A DNA stretch of 59,722 bases from Thermoplasmata archaeon (GTDB lineage: Archaea; Thermoplasmatota; Thermoplasmata; Thermoplasmatales; Thermoplasmataceae): positions 1 through 59,722 of the forward strand of contig JAKAUW010000062.1 of NCBI GenBank assembly GCA_021817455.1, given 5' to 3'. Positions within the stretch are counted from its first letter, which is position 1; each line of letters opens with the position of its first letter. This document shows, piece after piece, positions 18,659 to 27,354 of this stretch. Position numbers and translations under genes: made by a program. The notes beneath the pieces were generated by a model. It was not told the DNA's origin, ran no database searches, and saw only the letters and a program-made list of their open reading frames with translations.

Positions 18659-20068
18659 TCATAAAACCATGGCAGTGCCTTCAGACATTTTCATAACATC
18701 AGGTATTGCACCAATCATGTCCTCTATTGTATACCAGTAGGATTTCTGCCTGAAGCACATATCGCCCACCCTCTTGTTTATGAATGAGGCGAGGCAAGCG
18801 GCGTTGAATGGATCTTCGACCCTTGTGCTAATTGCACTGGCAATTCCAGCAAGCAGATCTCCTGTTCCACCCATGGTCATCCTGGGGTTACCCCCTTCGG
18901 TGTACCGTGTCCTTTTTCCGTCAGTTACAACGTCTATGGCTCCCTTGAGTATCATGGTACACTTCAATTTCTTTGCAAATTCCACTGCATTCGCCTCATT
19001 GGGCTCTTTCCCTGTAATTCTCCGGAATTCTCCCCGGTGCGGAGTGAGAATCAATCCTGTTTCCGGGCAAGTTTTCCTTATCCTGGAAGCGAGTTCGAGA
19101 CCTTCCGCGTCAAGCACGGTTGTGCCTTTGAAATCCTTAATTGCCCTTACTGTTTCGTCCATGGGTTGGTTTTTCCCTAAGCCTGAACCAATGAGGATGG
19201 TGTCGCTCTTTCTGATTTCTTCAAGTATTTCCCTGTTTTCAGCATCCCTTACGATTATGTCAGGGCTATATGAGCTCAAAATGACCCGGTTCTCGTGCCT
19301 CGCATATATTCTCACAAGGTCAGACCCAGCCCTGATTGCACCCATGGAAGCTATTATGGCGGAGCCATGGAAGGCCCATCCGGAAACCATTGCGACGCTG
19401 CCGTTCATACCTTTGTGTGAGTCCTTTCCAGGAAGCCTGTAGTAGGCGAATTCTCCAGGCCCGTTATGCGTAAAGACCTTTTCAGGTATCCCTATACCTG
19501 CCTCCACAATCTTCCCGGAGTTTTGTTTAGTCATTCCCTGCTTGGCCTCGGTGAATGTCACTGTTATATTGGGCTTAACCCGTGTCCGTGAGCCAAGCCC
19601 TGAAGGTATGTCAACTGAAACCACTTTCTTTCCGGAAGAATTGATTGCCCTTATGAGGCCTGCATATGGTTCCCTGGGTTCGCCGACAATTCCTGATCCG
19701 AGAAGGGCGTCAACTATGATTTCAGCTGATGAGGCTGCCCCGCTTGCATCCGCGGGTGCTATTAATTTCCCTTTGTATTCCCTGGCGGCTTTCCTGGATT
19801 CTTCGGTTTTCATCCCTTCCCCTCCTGAGACTGCACATACAGTTACATCATTTGAGGTCGATAGAATGCGCGCGGCAACAAAGCCATCACCACCGTTGTT
19901 ACCTGAGCCGCAGACCACGAGGATCCTTTTGCCCTTCCCGTACAGGCTTTCCACAGTCTCCGCAACTCTGGAGCCTGCATTTGCCATGAGGCTGTAAAGG
20001 TCCCCGTAGAAGAACTCGTAATTCTTGTCAGCCCTCTTCACATCAAGGAAAGATAGAGACATGCCCAA
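18659..20068 (-). CDS. nnr: Bifunctional NAD(P)H-hydrate repair enzyme (epimerase + ADP/ATP-dependent dehydratase)
   Basis: 469 aa. Residues 1-210 are the YjeF N-terminal epimerase domain, with VVCGSGNNGGDGFVAARIL near residue 50. Residues 215-469 are a ribokinase-like NAD(P)HX dehydratase: SHKGMNGSVAMVSG opens it, VLDAEGL is in the middle, LTPHRGEFRRI follows, and the GGTGDLLAGI nucleotide loop is near residue 400. It repairs hydrated NADH and NADPH. Both domains appear complete. Confidence 0.93.
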   Translation of the reverse strand: MGMSLSFLDVKRADKNYEFFYGDLYSLMANAGSRVAETVESLYGKGKRILVVCGSGNNGGDGFVAARILSTSNDVTVCAVSGGEGMKTEESRKAAREYKGKLIAPADASGAASSAEIIVDALLGSGIVGEPREPYAGLIRAINSSGKKVVSVDIPSGLGSRTRVKPNITVTFTEAKQGMTKQNSGKIVEAGIGIPEKVFTHNGPGEFAYYRLPGKDSHKGMNGSVAMVSGWAFHGSAIIASMGAIRAGSDLVRIYARHENRVILSSYSPDIIVRDAENREILEEIRKSDTILIGSGLGKNQPMDETVRAIKDFKGTTVLDAEGLELASRIRKTCPETGLILTPHRGEFRRITGKEPNEANAVEFAKKLKCTMILKGAIDVVTDGKRTRYTEGGNPRMTMGGTGDLLAGIASAISTRVEDPFNAACLASFINKRVGDMCFRQKSYWYTIEDMIGAIPDVMKMSEGTAMVL

Positions 20069-20087: not shown

Positions 20088-20753
20088 CTATTTTATTAGC
20101 TTTCCAGTAGCGATTTTCCACATAAAGAGGTCAAGTATCCCTGGTTGAAGCCCCATATCGTCTGCCATCTGTAGAATAACCTGCTCTGTAGCCAGATAAT
20201 TCTTCCTTGAAGCAACCTTGATATTAAGATCCGGCTTCTGGGAAAGAAGCATCCTCAAAATATGTTTATCAAGGATGGCGAAGCTGAACACACCCACATT
20301 CCTCAGGAAATGGGAAGCTTCCTTGTAACCGATACCCTTGATGTTTTCTATGAGGTATTCCCTGCTGCTGAATGGATCATCCGAATTTATGAGTGCAGGA
20401 AGTTCGTCAATTATCCACCTCGATTGCACTATAAACTCGCTTCTCAGGTTGTAGAACCTGTACTTTGCGTTCCTGAGGGCATTTCTCAGTTCAGCCTGGT
20501 CCAGATTTATGAAACCATCAGTTCCAATGGCCTGTTGGGTCCTCACACCCATCTCCGCAGAAGTGTTTGCTGTGAGGAGGCAGAAGCACAGTTCTCCGAA
20601 AATACTCTCCTTGGTTGCAGACTTGAAGGCCATGAATTCATCTGCCCTCCTGTTAACGTCCTGTGCAAAAGGAGAGGAAACCAGCTGTCTGACCCTTTCA
20701 AGAATTGACTCCTGCTGCTTATTGGTTTCATTTACCGGTGAGAGGGACTCCAT
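20088..20753 (-). CDS. ogg: N-glycosylase/DNA lyase (Ogg2-type 8-oxoguanine glycosylase)
   Basis: 221 aa, the size of archaeal Ogg2. Helix-hairpin-helix NIKGIGYKEASHFLRNVG near residues 138-155 carries the catalytic lysine, and FAILDKHILRML supplies the catalytic aspartate of the HhH-GPD fold. It excises 8-oxoguanine and nicks the abasic site. Its start faces the nickel permease gene across 61 nt. An oxidised-base repair gene next to a superoxide dismutase module may be chance. Confidence 0.9.
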   Translation of the reverse strand: MESLSPVNETNKQQESILERVRQLVSSPFAQDVNRRADEFMAFKSATKESIFGELCFCLLTANTSAEMGVRTQQAIGTDGFINLDQAELRNALRNAKYRFYNLRSEFIVQSRWIIDELPALINSDDPFSSREYLIENIKGIGYKEASHFLRNVGVFSFAILDKHILRMLLSQKPDLNIKVASRKNYLATEQVILQMADDMGLQPGILDLFMWKIATGKLIK

Positions 20754-20814: not shown

Positions 20815-21939
20815 ATGGAAGGAAAATACTCATGGAGCAGGAAATTCACAATGTCTGGTATTCCGGAAACCAAGGCTCGCGAACATCACCACGATGAAAC
20901 TGGGCCAGGTTCTGGCAGGGCTCTCTTGCTTTATGTTCCCATAGCTCTTGCAACAGCATCTGGTATTGCTGCATCCATATTAATAGGCAGAACTTCGGTG
21001 ATTCTTGCAGGGCTCGCCATAGTTGCATATGTCCTTGGCCTGAGGCACGGGGTCGACGCAGACCATATTGCAGCAATAGACAATACTGTCAGGAAGCTTA
21101 TGCAGGAGGGAAAAAATACTGTGTCTGTTGGAACATGGTTTTCCCTCGGGCATTCGACTGTGGTTGTTACCCTCATAGTGGCACTGATTTTCTTCACAAG
21201 GACAGTAGCCGGTGGAATACCAGCCCTGCAGGCAAATGGGGCCATAATTGGTACGGCAGTATCAGGAGCCTTTCTCTGGATTATCGGGCTGATGAATGTG
21301 GTCATAGCTCTTGGAATCTATAGAATTTACAGAAACCTCCGCGAAGGAAACGGGGAAACACTGGACATTGAAGATTTGCTTTCAAGAAGGGGCTTATTAA
21401 ACAGGTACTTCCATCCCCTGTTCCGGGTTGTGAACAAGCCATGGCAGATTTACCCCATCGGGGTGCTTTTTGGTCTGGGTTTTGACACAGCCAGCGAGGT
21501 CGCCCTCATTGCCATCAGTGTTGGTGCGGATGTGTCAGGAGCTGTTCCCCTCTGGATGATACTTGTGCTGCCATTCATGTTCACCTGCGGCATGGTTCTT
21601 GTGGACACCACTGATGGAATTGCCATGAGAAAGGCATATGGTTGGGCATTTCAACGGCCAATCAGGAAAATATACTACAACCTTACATTGACAGTGATAT
21701 CGGTCATGGTCGCCCTTGCAATTGGTTCAGTGGAGGTACTTCAGGTGTTCTCAATGGAACTCAGGCCTTCTGGTGCATTCTGGACCTGGGTTCTTGGTCT
21801 GAACTTTTCTGAGATAGGTTATTTTATAGTGGCCATTTTTACCCTGACATGGCTGTTCTCCATGGCATATTACAAATACATGAAAATTGAAGAAATTTTT
21901 CCAGAACCAGGAGAAAATGAGGATTCCCCTCTCGATTAG
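20815..21939 (+). CDS. Nickel/cobalt permease, NiCoT (HoxN/NixA) family
   Basis: 374 aa with about eight transmembrane segments. The NiCoT signature RHGVDADHIAAIDNTVRKL is at residues 77-95, the metal-selective motif in helix II. FSLGHSTVV and LGFDTASEVALIAIS are the second and third conserved blocks. A longer open frame starts at 20509 but runs back over the ogg gene. ATG 20815 (INM-EGKYSW) and ATG 20851 (MSGIPETK) are both possible; I give the first. The His-rich N-terminus (EHHHDE) may gather metal. It converges on the NiSOD maturation protease with 33 nt between stops, so nickel for the dismutase is the likely cargo. Confidence 0.9.
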   Translation: MEGKYSWSRKFTMSGIPETKAREHHHDETGPGSGRALLLYVPIALATASGIAASILIGRTSVILAGLAIVAYVLGLRHGVDADHIAAIDNTVRKLMQEGKNTVSVGTWFSLGHSTVVVTLIVALIFFTRTVAGGIPALQANGAIIGTAVSGAFLWIIGLMNVVIALGIYRIYRNLREGNGETLDIEDLLSRRGLLNRYFHPLFRVVNKPWQIYPIGVLFGLGFDTASEVALIAISVGADVSGAVPLWMILVLPFMFTCGMVLVDTTDGIAMRKAYGWAFQRPIRKIYYNLTLTVISVMVALAIGSVEVLQVFSMELRPSGAFWTWVLGLNFSEIGYFIVAIFTLTWLFSMAYYKYMKIEEIFPEPGENEDSPLD

Positions 21940-21972
21940 AGGAATCATTCCTGCGATGAAAGACCATTTTGC

Positions 21973-22290
21973 TCATTCTGGGTGTTTCCCTCGTGCAATG
22001 AAAATAACCTTACCTATTATTGATTTTCTGGATATGGCCCCGAATGTGTTGCTATCAGTGCTCCTCATCCTGTTGTCCCCTTCCATAAAAAATTTGGTGC
22101 CGTCATCTGATTTTTCAAGGCTGCGAACGCGTTTTATGAGAACCATGCCATCAACGGGGCTGCGGAAAACGAGGACATCCCCTGCGCCGATACTGAAAAA
22201 AAATTTGGTTGAAACAGCATAGTCCCCATCCTTAGCATAGGGTACCATGCTGTTTCCGCTGATCTTTACGACTTTAATGGGGGTCCACAA
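21973..22290 (-). CDS. sodX: Nickel superoxide dismutase maturation protease (SodX-like, S26 family)
   Basis: 105 aa soluble S26 peptidase. The serine nucleophile is in ISGNSMVPYA, the general-base lysine in LIKRVRSLE, and the signal-peptidase box GDNRMRSTDSNTFG is present. It has no membrane helix, unlike a true signal peptidase, and no HTH, unlike LexA. That is the picture of SodX, which removes the leader of NiSOD. It starts at a TTG one nucleotide after the sodN stop, so coupled translation with its substrate is likely. This pairing is the strongest evidence for the name. Confidence 0.85.
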   Translation of the reverse strand: MWTPIKVVKISGNSMVPYAKDGDYAVSTKFFFSIGAGDVLVFRSPVDGMVLIKRVRSLEKSDDGTKFFMEGDNRMRSTDSNTFGAISRKSIIGKVIFIARGKHPE

Positions 22291-22291
22291 T

Positions 22292-22810
22292 TCAAAGCTG
22301 CGGGTAAACTACTTCTTCGTGTGGATCGTAAGGTGCTTTCGCCCTCTTTGTCTTGACGCCCTTTATTTCCCAGAATATCTCTGAGAATTTGTTTACTTCA
22401 TTAAGGAGCTTCATAGCAGCATCCCTGTCTGGTTCCTGCTTTGATTTTCCGCCGAACTTCATGATGTTGAACACTATCTCATGCAGGTCAGGGTGAGCTT
22501 TTACATGCTCAGGCTTGATGAAATCTCCCCAGATGATCCTTATCTCGTGCTTGCAAAGCTCAGCGTGTTTTTCCTTGACTTCCACTGCCCTGGCCATGTC
22601 ATGCACGTAATCCAGAAGTTCGTTGGGGTTCTCCGGCTTCGGCTTGGGGATAGCGTTCATGAGGTCTACCATTCTTACCACAGTCAATGCAGAAAGCTGG
22701 GCCAGATGTGGATCATATATTCCGCACGGGTAATCGCAGTGCGCGTATGCTGTATCATACTTGTCTTCCATTGCTCCAAGGAGTTTTGCTAAAGTGTTGT
22801 TTTCTTTCAC
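22292..22810 (-). CDS. sodN: Nickel-containing superoxide dismutase
   Basis: 172 aa precursor. A 23-residue leader ending in Ala is followed by HCDYPCGIYDP (from residue 24). This is the nickel hook: after cleavage His1, Cys2 and Cys6 plus the backbone bind nickel. Bacterial SodN has the same HCDxPCGxY. The rest, about 149 residues, is helical like the NiSOD four-helix bundle, with SALTVVRMVDLM and DFIKPEHVK. The start is a GTG with AGGTGA directly upstream. The sodX protease follows at once and a nickel permease faces the pair. Such an enzyme converts superoxide to oxygen and peroxide. Confidence 0.93.
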   Translation of the reverse strand: MKENNTLAKLLGAMEDKYDTAYAHCDYPCGIYDPHLAQLSALTVVRMVDLMNAIPKPKPENPNELLDYVHDMARAVEVKEKHAELCKHEIRIIWGDFIKPEHVKAHPDLHEIVFNIMKFGGKSKQEPDRDAAMKLLNEVNKFSEIFWEIKGVKTKRAKAPYDPHEEVVYPQL

Positions 22811-22930
22811 GATTTCACCTAAATTATAATGATTTCACACATTAAAAAATTTGCTAGGAAAAAGGGATTCAAGTAAATGCAATGAAATTGGTTGGCCTGA
22901 TGGAACATTCTGAAACTGAAGCCACTAACT

Positions 22931-23146
22931 CTAATGTATCTGAGCAGAATCAAATGAATCCAGGGCAATGTTTCTTTTCAAGCCTTCCTTGATTCTACCG
23001 GTGCTGAACCTTATCCTTGAGATCCAGTCCTCTAGCGTTTCGTCGTCCAGAGTGCGGGTTCGGACGATCTCCCTTGAACAGCTGGAGCAATACATCCCGC
23101 CATATATCAGGGTTCCACAGATTATGCAGTGATGTTTGGCAGCCAT
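22931..23146 (-). CDS. Small zinc-finger protein
   Basis: 71 aa. Two cysteine pairs, CIIC near residue 7 and CSSC near residue 20, make a compact zinc knuckle. It is followed by a basic helical part with many arginines (REIVRTRTLDDETLEDWISR). This could bind nucleic acid or a protein partner. I do not recognise a family. It is separated from sodN by 120 nt and is probably expressed alone. The cysteine spacing supports a real gene. Confidence 0.6.
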   Translation of the reverse strand: MAAKHHCIICGTLIYGGMYCSSCSREIVRTRTLDDETLEDWISRIRFSTGRIKEGLKRNIALDSFDSAQIH

Positions 23147-23293: not shown

Positions 23294-24073
23294 TCAGTCG
23301 TCGCGGTACATGGTATCGGCATCAGAACCACCCATGAAGAAGAGCGACATTTCCGAGTAAATATCCTCAAATCCTGCAAAATCTTTGGAGGAAACTGATA
23401 AAATCTTGCTGATCATCCTGCTCTCCTGAAAGGCGTTTAGCACCGATGAGAAGTAATCCTTGACCATCTCTTGCTTCTCGTCCATGAAGGCATCATACAG
23501 CTGGCCCGGAGATTCCTCCCAGCTCTTTATGTTCTTCAGGTCTTCGTCCGTGATGAGATCCGTTTTGTTAAGAACGAAGAGCATGGGTTTGAAGAACCTG
23601 GACATAACTGAACCGTAGAGCATCTTCTGCGATATGAACCCTGAGGGGGATGATGAAAGGACTGCGTCAGTTACAAAAGCCACCATGGCCTTGCCTTGTG
23701 AAAGTTTGTCCACAAGTAGGGGGCTTCCCGGCCTGAAGCTGAAGAGCTCAATTTGCCCTGGAGTGTCGAATATGACATAGTAGTCATCAAATTCCTTCAG
23801 GGCATTTTCTATGAATTCTGTGTTCTCCAGTATTAGATCAGCCCCCACTATCTGGGCACCATTGGGCCCGAGGTTGAATTCAGACATGATCTGGCTCAGT
23901 GAGATTACCTCCCTGATGTCTATATCTGGTTCATATGGCGTAAATTCAGAGCCGGGGTCAAGGTTGACGATTGCGGCATTGTAGTCATTGGAAACAAGCC
24001 AATCCTTTAGCGCTCCGCAGAATGTAGATTTGCCTGTGCCCGCAGGGCCGGTTACAAAAAGGCTTCCTATCAA
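23294..24073 (-). CDS. GPN-loop GTPase
   Basis: 259 aa. Walker A GPAGTGKST at residues 9-17, the GPN insertion LGPNGAQIV near residue 72, DTPGQIELF (G3) in the middle and NKTD (G4) near residue 166. Eukaryotic GPN1-3 act in RNA polymerase assembly; the archaeal enzyme's exact task is not fixed. It overlaps the end of polC by 4 nt and ends the four-gene pyrG operon. Confidence 0.92.
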   Translation of the reverse strand: MIGSLFVTGPAGTGKSTFCGALKDWLVSNDYNAAIVNLDPGSEFTPYEPDIDIREVISLSQIMSEFNLGPNGAQIVGADLILENTEFIENALKEFDDYYVIFDTPGQIELFSFRPGSPLLVDKLSQGKAMVAFVTDAVLSSSPSGFISQKMLYGSVMSRFFKPMLFVLNKTDLITDEDLKNIKSWEESPGQLYDAFMDEKQEMVKDYFSSVLNAFQESRMISKILSVSSKDFAGFEDIYSEMSLFFMGGSDADTMYRDD

Positions 24074-27000
24074 ATTTCTTCCTCCATGAATCTTGCCAGT
24101 GAGTTGTCAGGCTTATCCTCTTCAAGGTTAAAAGTACCCCGTATAGTTCTCACAAGGTTGTCAATCCTTATGTCAAGTGACCATGGGAGGTCGAAATCTT
24201 CTGAAATCTTGATGGTCTCAGCCATGTACTTTATGATGCTGCCCTTGTGGATCGTCAGGGATATGCTGTGGTTCCCGCACCTGTGGCATTTCCCGGAAAG
24301 CGGTACCCTTCTGTATTTTGTGTTGCACTTTGTGCACCTGAATTCCTGGGAGAAGAAACTCCTGAAGTTGCCGTACATATCCGGAAGGAAATGAGAATTC
24401 AGGACCCTTGTGGCAACATCATCCTCATCCACTGCGCGGATCCTCCTTGCAAGCGATAGCTGTCTTTCGATCTTCTCCTCCATGGAATCTATTGATTTGT
24501 AGGAGCATACCCTGACGCCACTGCTTATGTCCTTTGTCTCTGTGCTGTATCCCGAATTCAGGATAGTGCCTGTCTTCTTCAGCCTGACGCCCATGGTCAT
24601 CATCATTTCCTCAACCTCAGACGGAGATTTGCCCTGGTTGGCTGCTTCATAGAATTCCAGAGGATATTCAGAAAGTGTGTCCACGTTCATTGCCTCCTTG
24701 TCTACCTCATCAGGGTTAAGCTGAACCGTAAGAACCAGGGGGGCATCCATAAGGCCTCCTCTTGTGGATGGAAGGTATTCCTTAGAGAAATTTATAAGCC
24801 CGTCAAGCAGTAGCATGATGGAATCTTCATCGCCGTCGCAGTTTCTCCTCTTTGCGGCATGGAAAAACGGGTGCGCATAACAGCCGCTTACATCTGCAAA
24901 CCCGATTATCCTTCCAAGTATTCCGCCGGAGGTGTGCGGGGCAAGCCCAATAACAAGCTGCCCGATGATATCCTCCCTTTCCCTGCACATGTAGAAGGGG
25001 GGGTGATTGTAATACCTCACAAGCAGATCATCAATGAACTGAGAGACCCTGATGATGTAATCGGCGGATTCATAGGGAATTATGATATCCTGCGGGAAAA
25101 TTTCGTTATAGTCCTGGTCAGGGTAACCGAGCTGAACAAGCTTTTCCCTGCTTATGCCGATCTCCTGTGCCCTGAAGTGCGTGATGGGTATATCAGACAT
25201 ATCATACCTGCATGTCCCATCCTTGTTTGTGGATACATCGTGCAGTGCCCTGAGGTAGCCTTTTTCCAGCGGTTCACTTACCTTGTCCTTTGACATGAGC
25301 TTCTTTACCCCTTTTACCTCAAGCTTGTCAGGAATGTCTATTGCAAGCCTATTGAGGGCATTGCTGATGAGCTGGTTTATGTCCACCGTTATCTTCTTGG
25401 TCTTTCCTATGGGATTAGTCCTTGATCCGCACTCAGGGCAGATGGGATGCGGAGTCTCAAATGAGCAGGCAGTGCAGGACCTTACGCTAGTTTCTATCTC
25501 CACACCGCCGCCCTGCGAGTTCTTGCCGGCATTCTTCAGGGAACGCCTTGCATCTCCGTAATTTTCAACTGGGAAAAGGACATGAACCTTGGGCTTCATC
25601 TTCCTGTCACCAGCTTTCTCCGGCCTTCCGAGCCTTCCGCCGACCCTAGTTGGGGATCTGGGCTTGATCTGGAATCCTGCCAGTTTGTTCACAAGCTCAA
25701 TTGAATCCTGGACCTGAGGAATTTCCTTAGTTGAGGAAATAACACCGTCTGAAAGGTCCAGTCCAAGTGATGAGATGAGCGGATAGAATTCCTTGAGTTC
25801 CAGCCCTCTGGATGTCTTTTCAAATGGAACTCCAAGCTCTATGAGTGTGCGACTGGCATCAAAGCCGGATATGAAAAGTGTTTCGCCCGAAACAGTTGAA
25901 TCTGACAATTTCTTACGAAGGGCCAGGGTTTGTTCAACCTTGAGGTCATGCCAGAAATAATCGTACCTTGGGTACAAGGGTATATTTAGGTCCCTTGAGA
26001 CCTGGACTGCCTCAAACTGGTTAAGAGTCCTTGAAAGGAGTTCCTTTCTCTTCGCCTCATCCTTTATGTAAAGCTTCCACCAGTCATTGTTGAAGGAGCC
26101 TGGCACAAGTTTGTAGTTGTTTTCAAGGAAGTCACCGTATGCAATGAGTATTTCCCCCAGGTCTGTTATCTGTTCAATCTGGTCAAGCAGTTCGCCTGCT
26201 TCCTTTGCAGATTCCACCCTCACATGGTTCCCATTCTTCAGAAGGACCATGGGGCCGTCTATTGCCTCGCTTGGGGTTATTGCAGCAGCCTTTCCAGGCA
26301 GCTCAACTTTCACCTGTGACCCAGTGGCGATGAACCTGTCAAGGGCGACCATTGTCGATGGATTGATGGAGGCTGCGGCAAGCCCTGATACCCTAGATCT
26401 GCCATATCTGAGCCTGAAACCGCCTGGTCTGTTGGGATGGCCGAAAACAGGCCTCCCTGCAACGATATCCTTAAGGAACTTGTCTGAGTTCTTTGGTTTG
26501 GCCTCTTCCTGGCCTGCAGGGACAGACGATTCCTTCTTTCCAAGGAAGTTCCATTCCGAAAGCCCAAGTTTTTCAGTGTGCTTAAGCACTTTCTTCGATT
26601 TCTGTATGAGCCCCTCACAGAGCACCAGGCACATTCCTCCCCTGATCCTGTTTGTCCTGACACGCTCCATGTCCCGGTGTCCCGAGACCTCTTCCTCTTC
26701 ACTCCCTTCACCATCTATGCAAACCGGTGAATTGAGGATGACCTGCCTTACCTCTTCAGGAGAGGGCAGATACTGGAGGTGCTTTACCCTGTTGTATGCC
26801 TGCACCTCTTCTATATAACGTTCCACCTCGTCGTCAGTGGGCTTGAATGACCCGATGCCCAGATCCCTTCTTACAACATCTGCAATGAGGACACTTAAGG
26901 CCTGTGCTGTTCCTCCGGCCCCCCTTATGGGCCCGGAATAAACCACTGAAACATAATCTGACCCATCGCTGTTGTGGTCAATGGATACATCGGCTATACC

Positions 27001-27354
27001 TTCAAGCGGGGCAACAAGGATCCCTTCTGTAAGGATTGCGAGGCCCACCCTTACAGCTTTGTCAACTGCAACTGTCTTCCCCTGGGAGGCATACATACCA
27101 GCAACTTTCCTGGATATCTCAATGGAAATTTCCTCCCTGGTCCTTGTTTTGGCCAGTGCCCTGATATCCTCAGCTATTCCCCTGATATCTATGAGTTCCT
27201 CGATCCTGTCAGCCATATCCGAAGCAAGGGGCATTTCTACTGTGTCCACCACGTCAAGGCCCTTTGACCTGACATTCTTTGCCACTTCATATCCCACCTT
27301 GACCTGATCCCAGAGAAATTTGGTATATTCAGAATGGTCCTTGAACGGGTTCAT
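24070..27354 (-). CDS. polC: DNA polymerase D large subunit (DP2)
   Basis: 1094 aa, the catalytic subunit of archaeal family D polymerase. It starts with the usual helical region and ends with the zinc-binding FRCTKCNTKYRRVPL near residue 1010. Central motifs are in order: the GPIRGAGGTAQALSVLI region near 140, CTACSFETPHPICPECGS (zinc) near 630, and the catalytic stretch RKRNCDGDEDSIMLLLDGL-like at about 840, seen as AAKRRNCDGDEDSIMLL. No intein is present although this gene often carries one. Together with a small subunit (DP1, not in this window) it replicates DNA. It is linked to a small SCP2-like gene and a GPN GTPase by 4-nt overlaps. Confidence 0.96.
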   Translation of the reverse strand: MNPFKDHSEYTKFLWDQVKVGYEVAKNVRSKGLDVVDTVEMPLASDMADRIEELIDIRGIAEDIRALAKTRTREEISIEISRKVAGMYASQGKTVAVDKAVRVGLAILTEGILVAPLEGIADVSIDHNSDGSDYVSVVYSGPIRGAGGTAQALSVLIADVVRRDLGIGSFKPTDDEVERYIEEVQAYNRVKHLQYLPSPEEVRQVILNSPVCIDGEGSEEEEVSGHRDMERVRTNRIRGGMCLVLCEGLIQKSKKVLKHTEKLGLSEWNFLGKKESSVPAGQEEAKPKNSDKFLKDIVAGRPVFGHPNRPGGFRLRYGRSRVSGLAAASINPSTMVALDRFIATGSQVKVELPGKAAAITPSEAIDGPMVLLKNGNHVRVESAKEAGELLDQIEQITDLGEILIAYGDFLENNYKLVPGSFNNDWWKLYIKDEAKRKELLSRTLNQFEAVQVSRDLNIPLYPRYDYFWHDLKVEQTLALRKKLSDSTVSGETLFISGFDASRTLIELGVPFEKTSRGLELKEFYPLISSLGLDLSDGVISSTKEIPQVQDSIELVNKLAGFQIKPRSPTRVGGRLGRPEKAGDRKMKPKVHVLFPVENYGDARRSLKNAGKNSQGGGVEIETSVRSCTACSFETPHPICPECGSRTNPIGKTKKITVDINQLISNALNRLAIDIPDKLEVKGVKKLMSKDKVSEPLEKGYLRALHDVSTNKDGTCRYDMSDIPITHFRAQEIGISREKLVQLGYPDQDYNEIFPQDIIIPYESADYIIRVSQFIDDLLVRYYNHPPFYMCREREDIIGQLVIGLAPHTSGGILGRIIGFADVSGCYAHPFFHAAKRRNCDGDEDSIMLLLDGLINFSKEYLPSTRGGLMDAPLVLTVQLNPDEVDKEAMNVDTLSEYPLEFYEAANQGKSPSEVEEMMMTMGVRLKKTGTILNSGYSTETKDISSGVRVCSYKSIDSMEEKIERQLSLARRIRAVDEDDVATRVLNSHFLPDMYGNFRSFFSQEFRCTKCNTKYRRVPLSGKCHRCGNHSISLTIHKGSIIKYMAETIKISEDFDLPWSLDIRIDNLVRTIRGTFNLEEDKPDNSLARFMEEEI

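Follow-up and report, generated by a model that had tools for sequence, protein, structure and literature searches.

A nickel superoxide dismutase (NiSOD) cassette of bacterial origin, in working order as far as its sequence allows one to judge, has very probably displaced the resident Fe/Mn-SOD at that gene's own chromosomal position in an archaeon of the Thermoplasmatales, and the same exchange would have recurred in other families. The cassette lies in the window, by which we mean the whole 59,722-nucleotide stretch of DNA that was analysed; it belongs to a 1.76 Mb archaeal draft genome of 96 contigs that is 93% complete (G000 in our numbering). A first-pass annotation of the same DNA recognized the cassette and missed both the swap in place and its recurrence. 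The features on which the argument turns are as follows.

18659..20068, minus strand: NAD(P)H-hydrate epimerase/dehydratase (NNR), a slot flank (PF03853, PF01256; collinear)
20088..20753, minus strand: 8-oxoguanine DNA glycosylase (Ogg), the right slot border (PF22175)
20815..21939, plus strand: NiCoT (NicO) nickel/cobalt permease (PF03824, TIGR00802; HX4DH)
21973..22290, minus strand: sodX, S26 peptidase directly after sodN (PF10502; Ser and Lys boxes; position)
22292..22810, minus strand: sodN, NiSOD precursor (PF09055 and TIGR02753 over cut-off; fold match; hook)
22742..22810, minus strand: SodN leader of 23 residues, ending AYA before His1 (sequence)
22811..22871, minus strand: upstream element of sodN, TATA-like TTTTTTAAT plus AGGTGA ribosome-binding site (sequence)
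22931..23146, minus strand: orf71, small cysteine-rich protein, the left slot border (conserved beside Fe/Mn-SOD in G082; no Pfam match)
23294..24073, minus strand: GPN-type GTPase, a slot flank (NF010341 over cut-off; 80% identical in G082, beside Fe/Mn-SOD)
24070..27354, minus strand: DNA polymerase D large subunit (DP2), a slot flank (TIGR00354; collinear in G079, G080, G082 and G083)

The gene order in the window is DP2, GTPase, orf71, sodN, sodX, NiCoT, Ogg, NNR and acyl-CoA ligase. A congener, G082, has Fe/Mn-SOD and no SodN, and there the order is DP2, GTPase, orf71, Fe/Mn-SOD (locus L054, 9854-10468), Ogg, NNR and acyl-CoA ligase. The slot of G083 is that of the window minus NiCoT, and in G079 the contig ends after sodX, with a second contig starting at NiCoT and Ogg. 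The sodN-sodX-NiCoT block of G080 is inverted as a unit between the same flanking genes (L050, 7984-9944, on G080:C30), and the upstream element of sodN has moved together with it; inversion by way of inverted repeats was considered and rejected, as neither the window nor G080 has long repeats on the two sides of the cassette. Another congener, G081 (69% complete), has neither SOD, and the flanking GTPase and Ogg genes are also missing from it. A foreign gene thus stands between the neighbours that the resident keeps in relatives, and the resident is gone: a tblastn search of the window's slot found no relic of Fe/Mn-SOD (lowest E 0.56), and neither Fe/Mn-SOD (Sod_Fe_C) nor Cu/Zn-SOD (Sod_Cu) has a match in the window's 93%-complete genome.

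The direction of the exchange, which is established in two families, can be read in the window's own family (f1) from the company that Fe/Mn-SOD keeps. Among the 58 family genomes with matches to both genes, 46, representing 16 of 19 genera, have Fe/Mn-SOD immediately upstream of Ogg in the same orientation; among the other 12, the two are on the same strand within 7 kb in six, elsewhere on one contig in two, and on different contigs in four. Because of this breadth, we take Fe/Mn-SOD to be ancestral there and NiSOD to be the newcomer. The Fe/Mn-SOD and Ogg genes together form a conserved oxidative-damage pair in this family.

The two enzymes also exclude one another at the level of the genome. 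SodN is present in 6 of the 117 genomes of the order (4 of the 6 genomes of the genus, the window's own included, and 2 of another Thermoplasmatales family, f5) and in 108 of 389 genomes drawn evenly from the phylum, whereas Fe/Mn-SOD is present in 70 of the 117 and in 97 of the 389 (96 of them over cut-off). Not one of the 117 or of the 389 genomes holds both (108 vs 96 in the phylum sample), with Fisher p values, uncorrected for relatedness, of 0.0034 for the order and 1.4e-16 for the phylum. The first-pass annotation had proposed that SodN may replace Fe/Mn-SOD, and the absence of Fe/Mn-SOD and Cu/Zn-SOD from the genome, together with the congener's Fe/Mn-SOD in the same slot, bears this out. 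Its suggestion of horizontal transfer likewise gains from the patchy distribution (6 of 117) and from the SodN tree with bacterial families described below, and the Thermoplasmatales-wide SodN clade that it named as contrary evidence is not what the order contains. Its statement that NiSOD is known mostly from bacteria is out of date for archaea, given the 108 of 389 genomes above and records already published.

Slot sharing was followed in 113 fetched loci rather than in every genome. In f5, all 7 fetched Fe/Mn-SOD loci (11 genomes have the gene) and both SodN loci are in one slot, its borders presumably being an acyl-CoA dehydrogenase and a PmbA/TldD-like gene. In f44, one of two families called Poseidoniales-like here, its name being deduced from the published pattern, all 24 Fe/Mn-SOD loci occupy one slot, where 16 of the 24 SodN loci are found too, the F3 border being kept in 11 of these and only F1 in 5; the remaining 8 are elsewhere. 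Over 17 kb, the f44 genomes G218 and G297 are collinear save for the SOD. A tree of one flanking gene (36 rows, quick method) requires at least five changes of SOD state around the f44 slot, three of them forced by strongly supported branches. The other Poseidoniales-like family, f36, has three Fe/Mn-SOD loci, with flanks in the data for two; among 21 SodN loci sampled from 61, two share the Fe/Mn-SOD slot (one inverted), one more (G381) is in the f44 slot, and 18 are elsewhere. Shared slots therefore occur in all four sampled families that have both enzymes, and since SodN is found outside them at 8 of 24 loci in f44 and at 18 of the 21 sampled in f36, the rule is not universal.

As a control, flanks were compared across families, and none were shared save between f44 and f36 (1 of 21, G381) and between f1 and the Lutacidiplasmatales-like family f7 (5 of 14), the latter putatively owing to one broad ATPase-like cluster, F27. 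By our estimate, chance insertion would have to meet one given gap among some 1,500-2,000 genes. Horizontally acquired genes usually insert anywhere, and the surprise is that at least some of the newcomers take the incumbent's address in every one of the four sampled families that use both metals. Two variants were seen among the f44 SodN loci. At five of them (L268 and L270-L273), the usual right border is replaced by two extra genes (clusters F52 and F53) that follow sodX. Eight f44 genomes (L225, L233-L235, L267, L269, L274 and L275) carry sodN-sodX at a second common locus, next to cluster F37 and mostly after the gene for a 1,700-residue protein, from which it follows that a route outside the slot also exists.

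We lean toward a broader reading, in which the SOD position of Thermoplasmatota is a socket where Fe/Mn-SOD interchanges with NiSOD, the latter as a sodN-sodX unit that at times includes its nickel permease, with at least four sockets in four families, several exchanges at one of them, and both enzymes together in none of the sampled genomes. If so, selection or recombination would keep exactly one SOD at a fixed address, plausibly by a single-step exchange between relatives through shared flanks or by adjacent insertion followed by immediate loss, and the metal that the SOD uses could be swapped as alleles are.

The best-surviving alternative is differential loss, whereby every slot once held both SODs side by side and each lineage later retained a single one, with no direct displacement. 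It would explain the common slots without any targeted exchange, a Marine Group II ancestor with both SODs has been proposed in the part of PMC10783094 available to us, and the repeated changes of state at the f44 slot fit it as well. Against it, both enzymes occur together in 0 of 389 phylum-sample and 0 of 117 order genomes, the window's slot retains no Fe/Mn-SOD relic at the tblastn score given above, and the Fe/Mn-SOD state spans 16 genera of f1, so that an ancestral pair would require many losses of SodN. We consider differential loss possible, if unlikely, and prefer displacement in place.

The region upstream of the incoming gene offers a further comparison. In f1, the 60 nt before sodN are closer to the upstream regions of Fe/Mn-SOD genes than most other upstream regions are, with at most 1 of 64 controls reaching the Fe mean; in f5 the corresponding counts are 0 of 38 and 3 of 38, and in f44 the likeness is not clear. 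This similarity to Fe/Mn-SOD promoters is suggestive only. Reuse of the resident's promoter is not claimed here, as the TATA-like box and AGGTGA may be generic and the element travelled with the inverted cassette of G080.

That the newcomer is a NiSOD is supported by several features. The sodN gene starts with GTG, has a Shine-Dalgarno-like AGGTGA just 5' of the start and encodes 172 residues; the product is the only PF09055 match in the genome (E 1.2e-40, 139.4 bits against a cut-off of 25) and also exceeds TIGR02753 (153.2 bits, cut-off 90). In known NiSODs, SodX cuts the leader before His1, and His1, Cys2 and Cys6 hold the nickel. Here the leader, MKENNTLAKLLGAMEDKYDTAYA (23 residues), runs directly into HCDYPCGIY, an intact nickel hook of the form H-C-x-x-P-C-G-x-Y, and the mature protein is predicted to begin with the His whose codon starts at 22741. 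Judged by its residues, the leader is not of the hydrophobic Sec type. Across 136 SodN open frames from the fetched loci, a set that includes several copies of the same genomes, the residue before this His is Ala in every case (136 of 136) and the -3 residue is A, V, S or G. An AlphaFold2 model built from 26 sequences (mean pLDDT 87.1, with values under 50 at residues 14-24, so that leader and hook start are modelled with low confidence) matched 16 solved chains at E ≤ 0.001, all of them NiSODs, with TM scores of 0.88-0.92 on target length (0.89 for 1t6u), which argues for the NiSOD fold. In the alignment, Ser and His stand at the positions of Glu17 and Arg47, which we take to be the neighbours of His1 with roles in the Streptomyces enzyme; because Marine Group II-like sequences are also without Glu17, we do not hold these residues to define the NiSOD family.

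The gene that follows, sodX, is separated from the sodN stop by 1 nt, and its product has an S26 domain (PF10502, E 7.7e-14) with both the Ser box (SGNSMxP) and the Lys box (LIKRV) of that family. With NCBIfam TIGR02754 it scores 48.5 bits, below the cut-off of 63.25, and its best model is that of general signal peptidase I (59.9 over a cut-off of 47), so the name SodX is given here from its position and boxes and not from TIGR02754. It likely removes the SodN leader, to go by gene order and motifs. The permease gene, with start candidates at the ATGs at 20815 and 20851, is convergent with sodX, their stops being 33 nt apart; its product matches PF03824 (E 4e-97), exceeds the TIGR00802 cut-off, falls below that of NF052500 NicT, and contains RHGVDADH, an HX4DH motif. 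NiCoT permeases over cut-off occur in 4 of the 6 SodN genomes of the order vs 7 of the 111 others (p 6e-4). The two SodN genomes without one, G083 and G027 (81-83% complete), have none beside sodN-sodX and none was found elsewhere in them. The NiCoT gene of G081 (L159, L161; G081:C37:17557-18431) comes in two overlapping pieces with a stop; this may be a disrupted copy or an artefact of assembly.

Much of the first-pass description of this module stands: the hook is intact after a 23-residue leader, and the permease, whose family models are over cut-off, does face sodN-sodX. Its cognate S26 protease keeps the S26 domain and the 1-nt spacing and misses the cut-off of the dedicated family. Enzyme, protease and nickel permease do form a set, yet to call it self-contained is too strong, because NiCoT is missing in two of the order's six SodN genomes. 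These same two shortfalls would suit a reading in which SodN is the only relevant gene, next to a general-purpose signal peptidase and a permease that is just another neighbour. We think this improbable, since all 51 SodN loci outside f7 have a peptidase gene immediately after sodN in the same orientation, and such a gene directly follows sodN in most bacterial and DPANN loci. Moreover, the closest relatives of the window's permease among those compared are those of G079, G080 and G026, and the permease of G026, which belongs to another family, is 51-56% identical to those of the window's genus vs 40-44% to other NicO proteins of the order, which suggests that the permease is part of what can be transferred. 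The module as a whole looks functional by all the signs in its sequence save the missed SodX cut-off.

Three nickel enzymes were sought in the window's genome, and SodN is the only one clearly present: [NiFe]-hydrogenase was not found there, and urease alpha gave only a match that is below cut-off and interrupted by stops. The match concerned (L296, G000:C49:2862-3029) is weakly urease-alpha-like, has two stops, and more likely represents another amidohydrolase.

As to where SodN came from, a tree of 100 rows, for which the best 80 of 446 relatives from one species-representative scan were picked by similarity to the query and which is therefore biased toward near relatives, unites the six Thermoplasmatales SodN in one clade (100/100) that adjoins a clade of Anaerolineae, other Chloroflexota, Acidobacteriota and Patescibacteria (99/93). 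SodN of Micrarchaeota, Nanoarchaeota, Aenigmatarchaeota and f7 falls outside, Marine Group II-like sequences being distant. The donor would accordingly be bacterial and, as far as the biased sample goes, Chloroflexota-like. Mature SodN is 79% identical between f1 and f5, against 38% for Fe/Mn-SOD and 38% for the GTPase; because SodN evolves slowly, being 57% identical even to bacteria, this identity is only suggestive as a clock of transfer. One SodN on a contig filed under Marsarchaeota (L104, 5001-5447) falls inside a Micrarchaeota clade, by transfer or mis-binning. Viral carriage of SodN was rejected, since none of 24 pattern matches in viral_contigs encodes a relative.

Vertical descent of SodN as a Thermoplasmatota trait common to f7 is a shade less probable still than the reading with ordinary neighbours. 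In its favour, 21 f7 genomes in the phylum sample have a SodN of similar subtype, 44-48% identical to that of the window. The tree, however, groups the Thermoplasmatales with bacteria and sets f7 apart with two Chloroflexota sequences, and joining f7 to the Thermoplasmatales costs 38.7 log units (AU p 0.027, for a group named post hoc), so that tree and AU test together disfavour it. The sodX arrangement of f7 also differs: at none of its 14 loci (L055-L068) does the sodX-like gene follow sodN immediately in the same orientation; as called, it mostly lies upstream of sodN or overlaps it, on the opposite strand. That the contig is contaminant or chimeric can virtually be dismissed: the SodN-bearing genomes of the order are all fragmented drafts, but independently assembled congeners have the same gene order, five of the order's six SodN contigs measure 55-104 kb and the remaining one 11 kb, and on the contigs from the window's genus the flanking genes are archaeal, DNA polymerase D among them.

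We thus favour the following course for displacement in place. The cassette would have arrived by horizontal transfer from a bacterial, Chloroflexota-like NiSOD branch and displaced the resident, unrelated Fe/Mn-SOD at its own position between orf71 and the Ogg gene, either by inserting next to the old gene or on top of it, or by recombining through shared flanks, with the consequence that each cell would keep exactly one SOD. Within the cell, SodN would be made with a short non-Sec leader, and SodX, translated from the next gene, would cut after AYA and free His1, leaving the HCDYPC hook able to bind nickel that the NiCoT permease would bring in; cleavage, nickel loading and catalysis are predictions here. 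Exchanges of the same kind would have taken place independently in a second Thermoplasmatales family and, more than once, in Poseidoniales-like archaea. If denser data uphold this, the families would provide a replicated natural experiment on metal switching and could serve as a test of the way in which foreign genes oust residents, whether by allelic exchange, reuse of the promoter or a transient tandem.

NiSOD in archaea is not new, and has been reported in the same phylum. In the parts of the sources available, it is listed for Lutacidiplasmatales (PMC9287336) and for several archaeal groups, among them Marine Group II, where NiSOD or Fe/MnSOD occurs by clade and transfer from cyanobacteria is argued (PMC10783094); inter-domain transfer of NiSOD was put forward by Sutherland et al. 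2021, as cited in PMC10783094, and non-homologous replacement of SODs appears as a concept in the available part of PMC9839398. The chromosomal slot is what we did not find in print: the main text of PMC10783094 has no words on locus or synteny, the available part of PMC9287336 does not treat the slot, and searches of a limited literature for displacement or synteny of SOD genes brought up no description of common slots.

The NiSODs of Marine Group II/Poseidoniales and Lutacidiplasmatales, as described in those parts, resemble the window's in belonging to the same phylum, in using nickel or Fe/Mn and not both, and in having an argued bacterial origin; the window's SodN sits on a different branch of the tree. 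With the Streptomyces NiSOD (SodN, PDB 1t6u/1q0d) and its SodX, the window has in common the HCDxPCGxY hook, a leader, the four-helix fold and a separate S26 protease. The two SodN are about 33% identical, and the window's differs in its longer leader, its C-terminal extension, Ser and His instead of Glu and Arg at positions 17 and 47, and its archaeal host, in whose genome no Fe-SOD gene was found. Cyanobacterial sodN-sodX reportedly occurs with a transporter gene, sodT, which likewise brings SodN, SodX and a putative nickel transporter together; unlike sodT, the window's transporter is a PF03824 NiCoT, is convergent, and is missing in some relatives. Gene displacement in situ, which is said to have been described before, leaves a foreign gene in the resident's place with the neighbours undisturbed, as in the window. 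In its classical form the incoming gene is homologous to the resident (xenologous), whereas Sod_Ni and Sod_Fe are different families, so that the present case differs in involving non-homologous enzymes and in recurring at four different loci.
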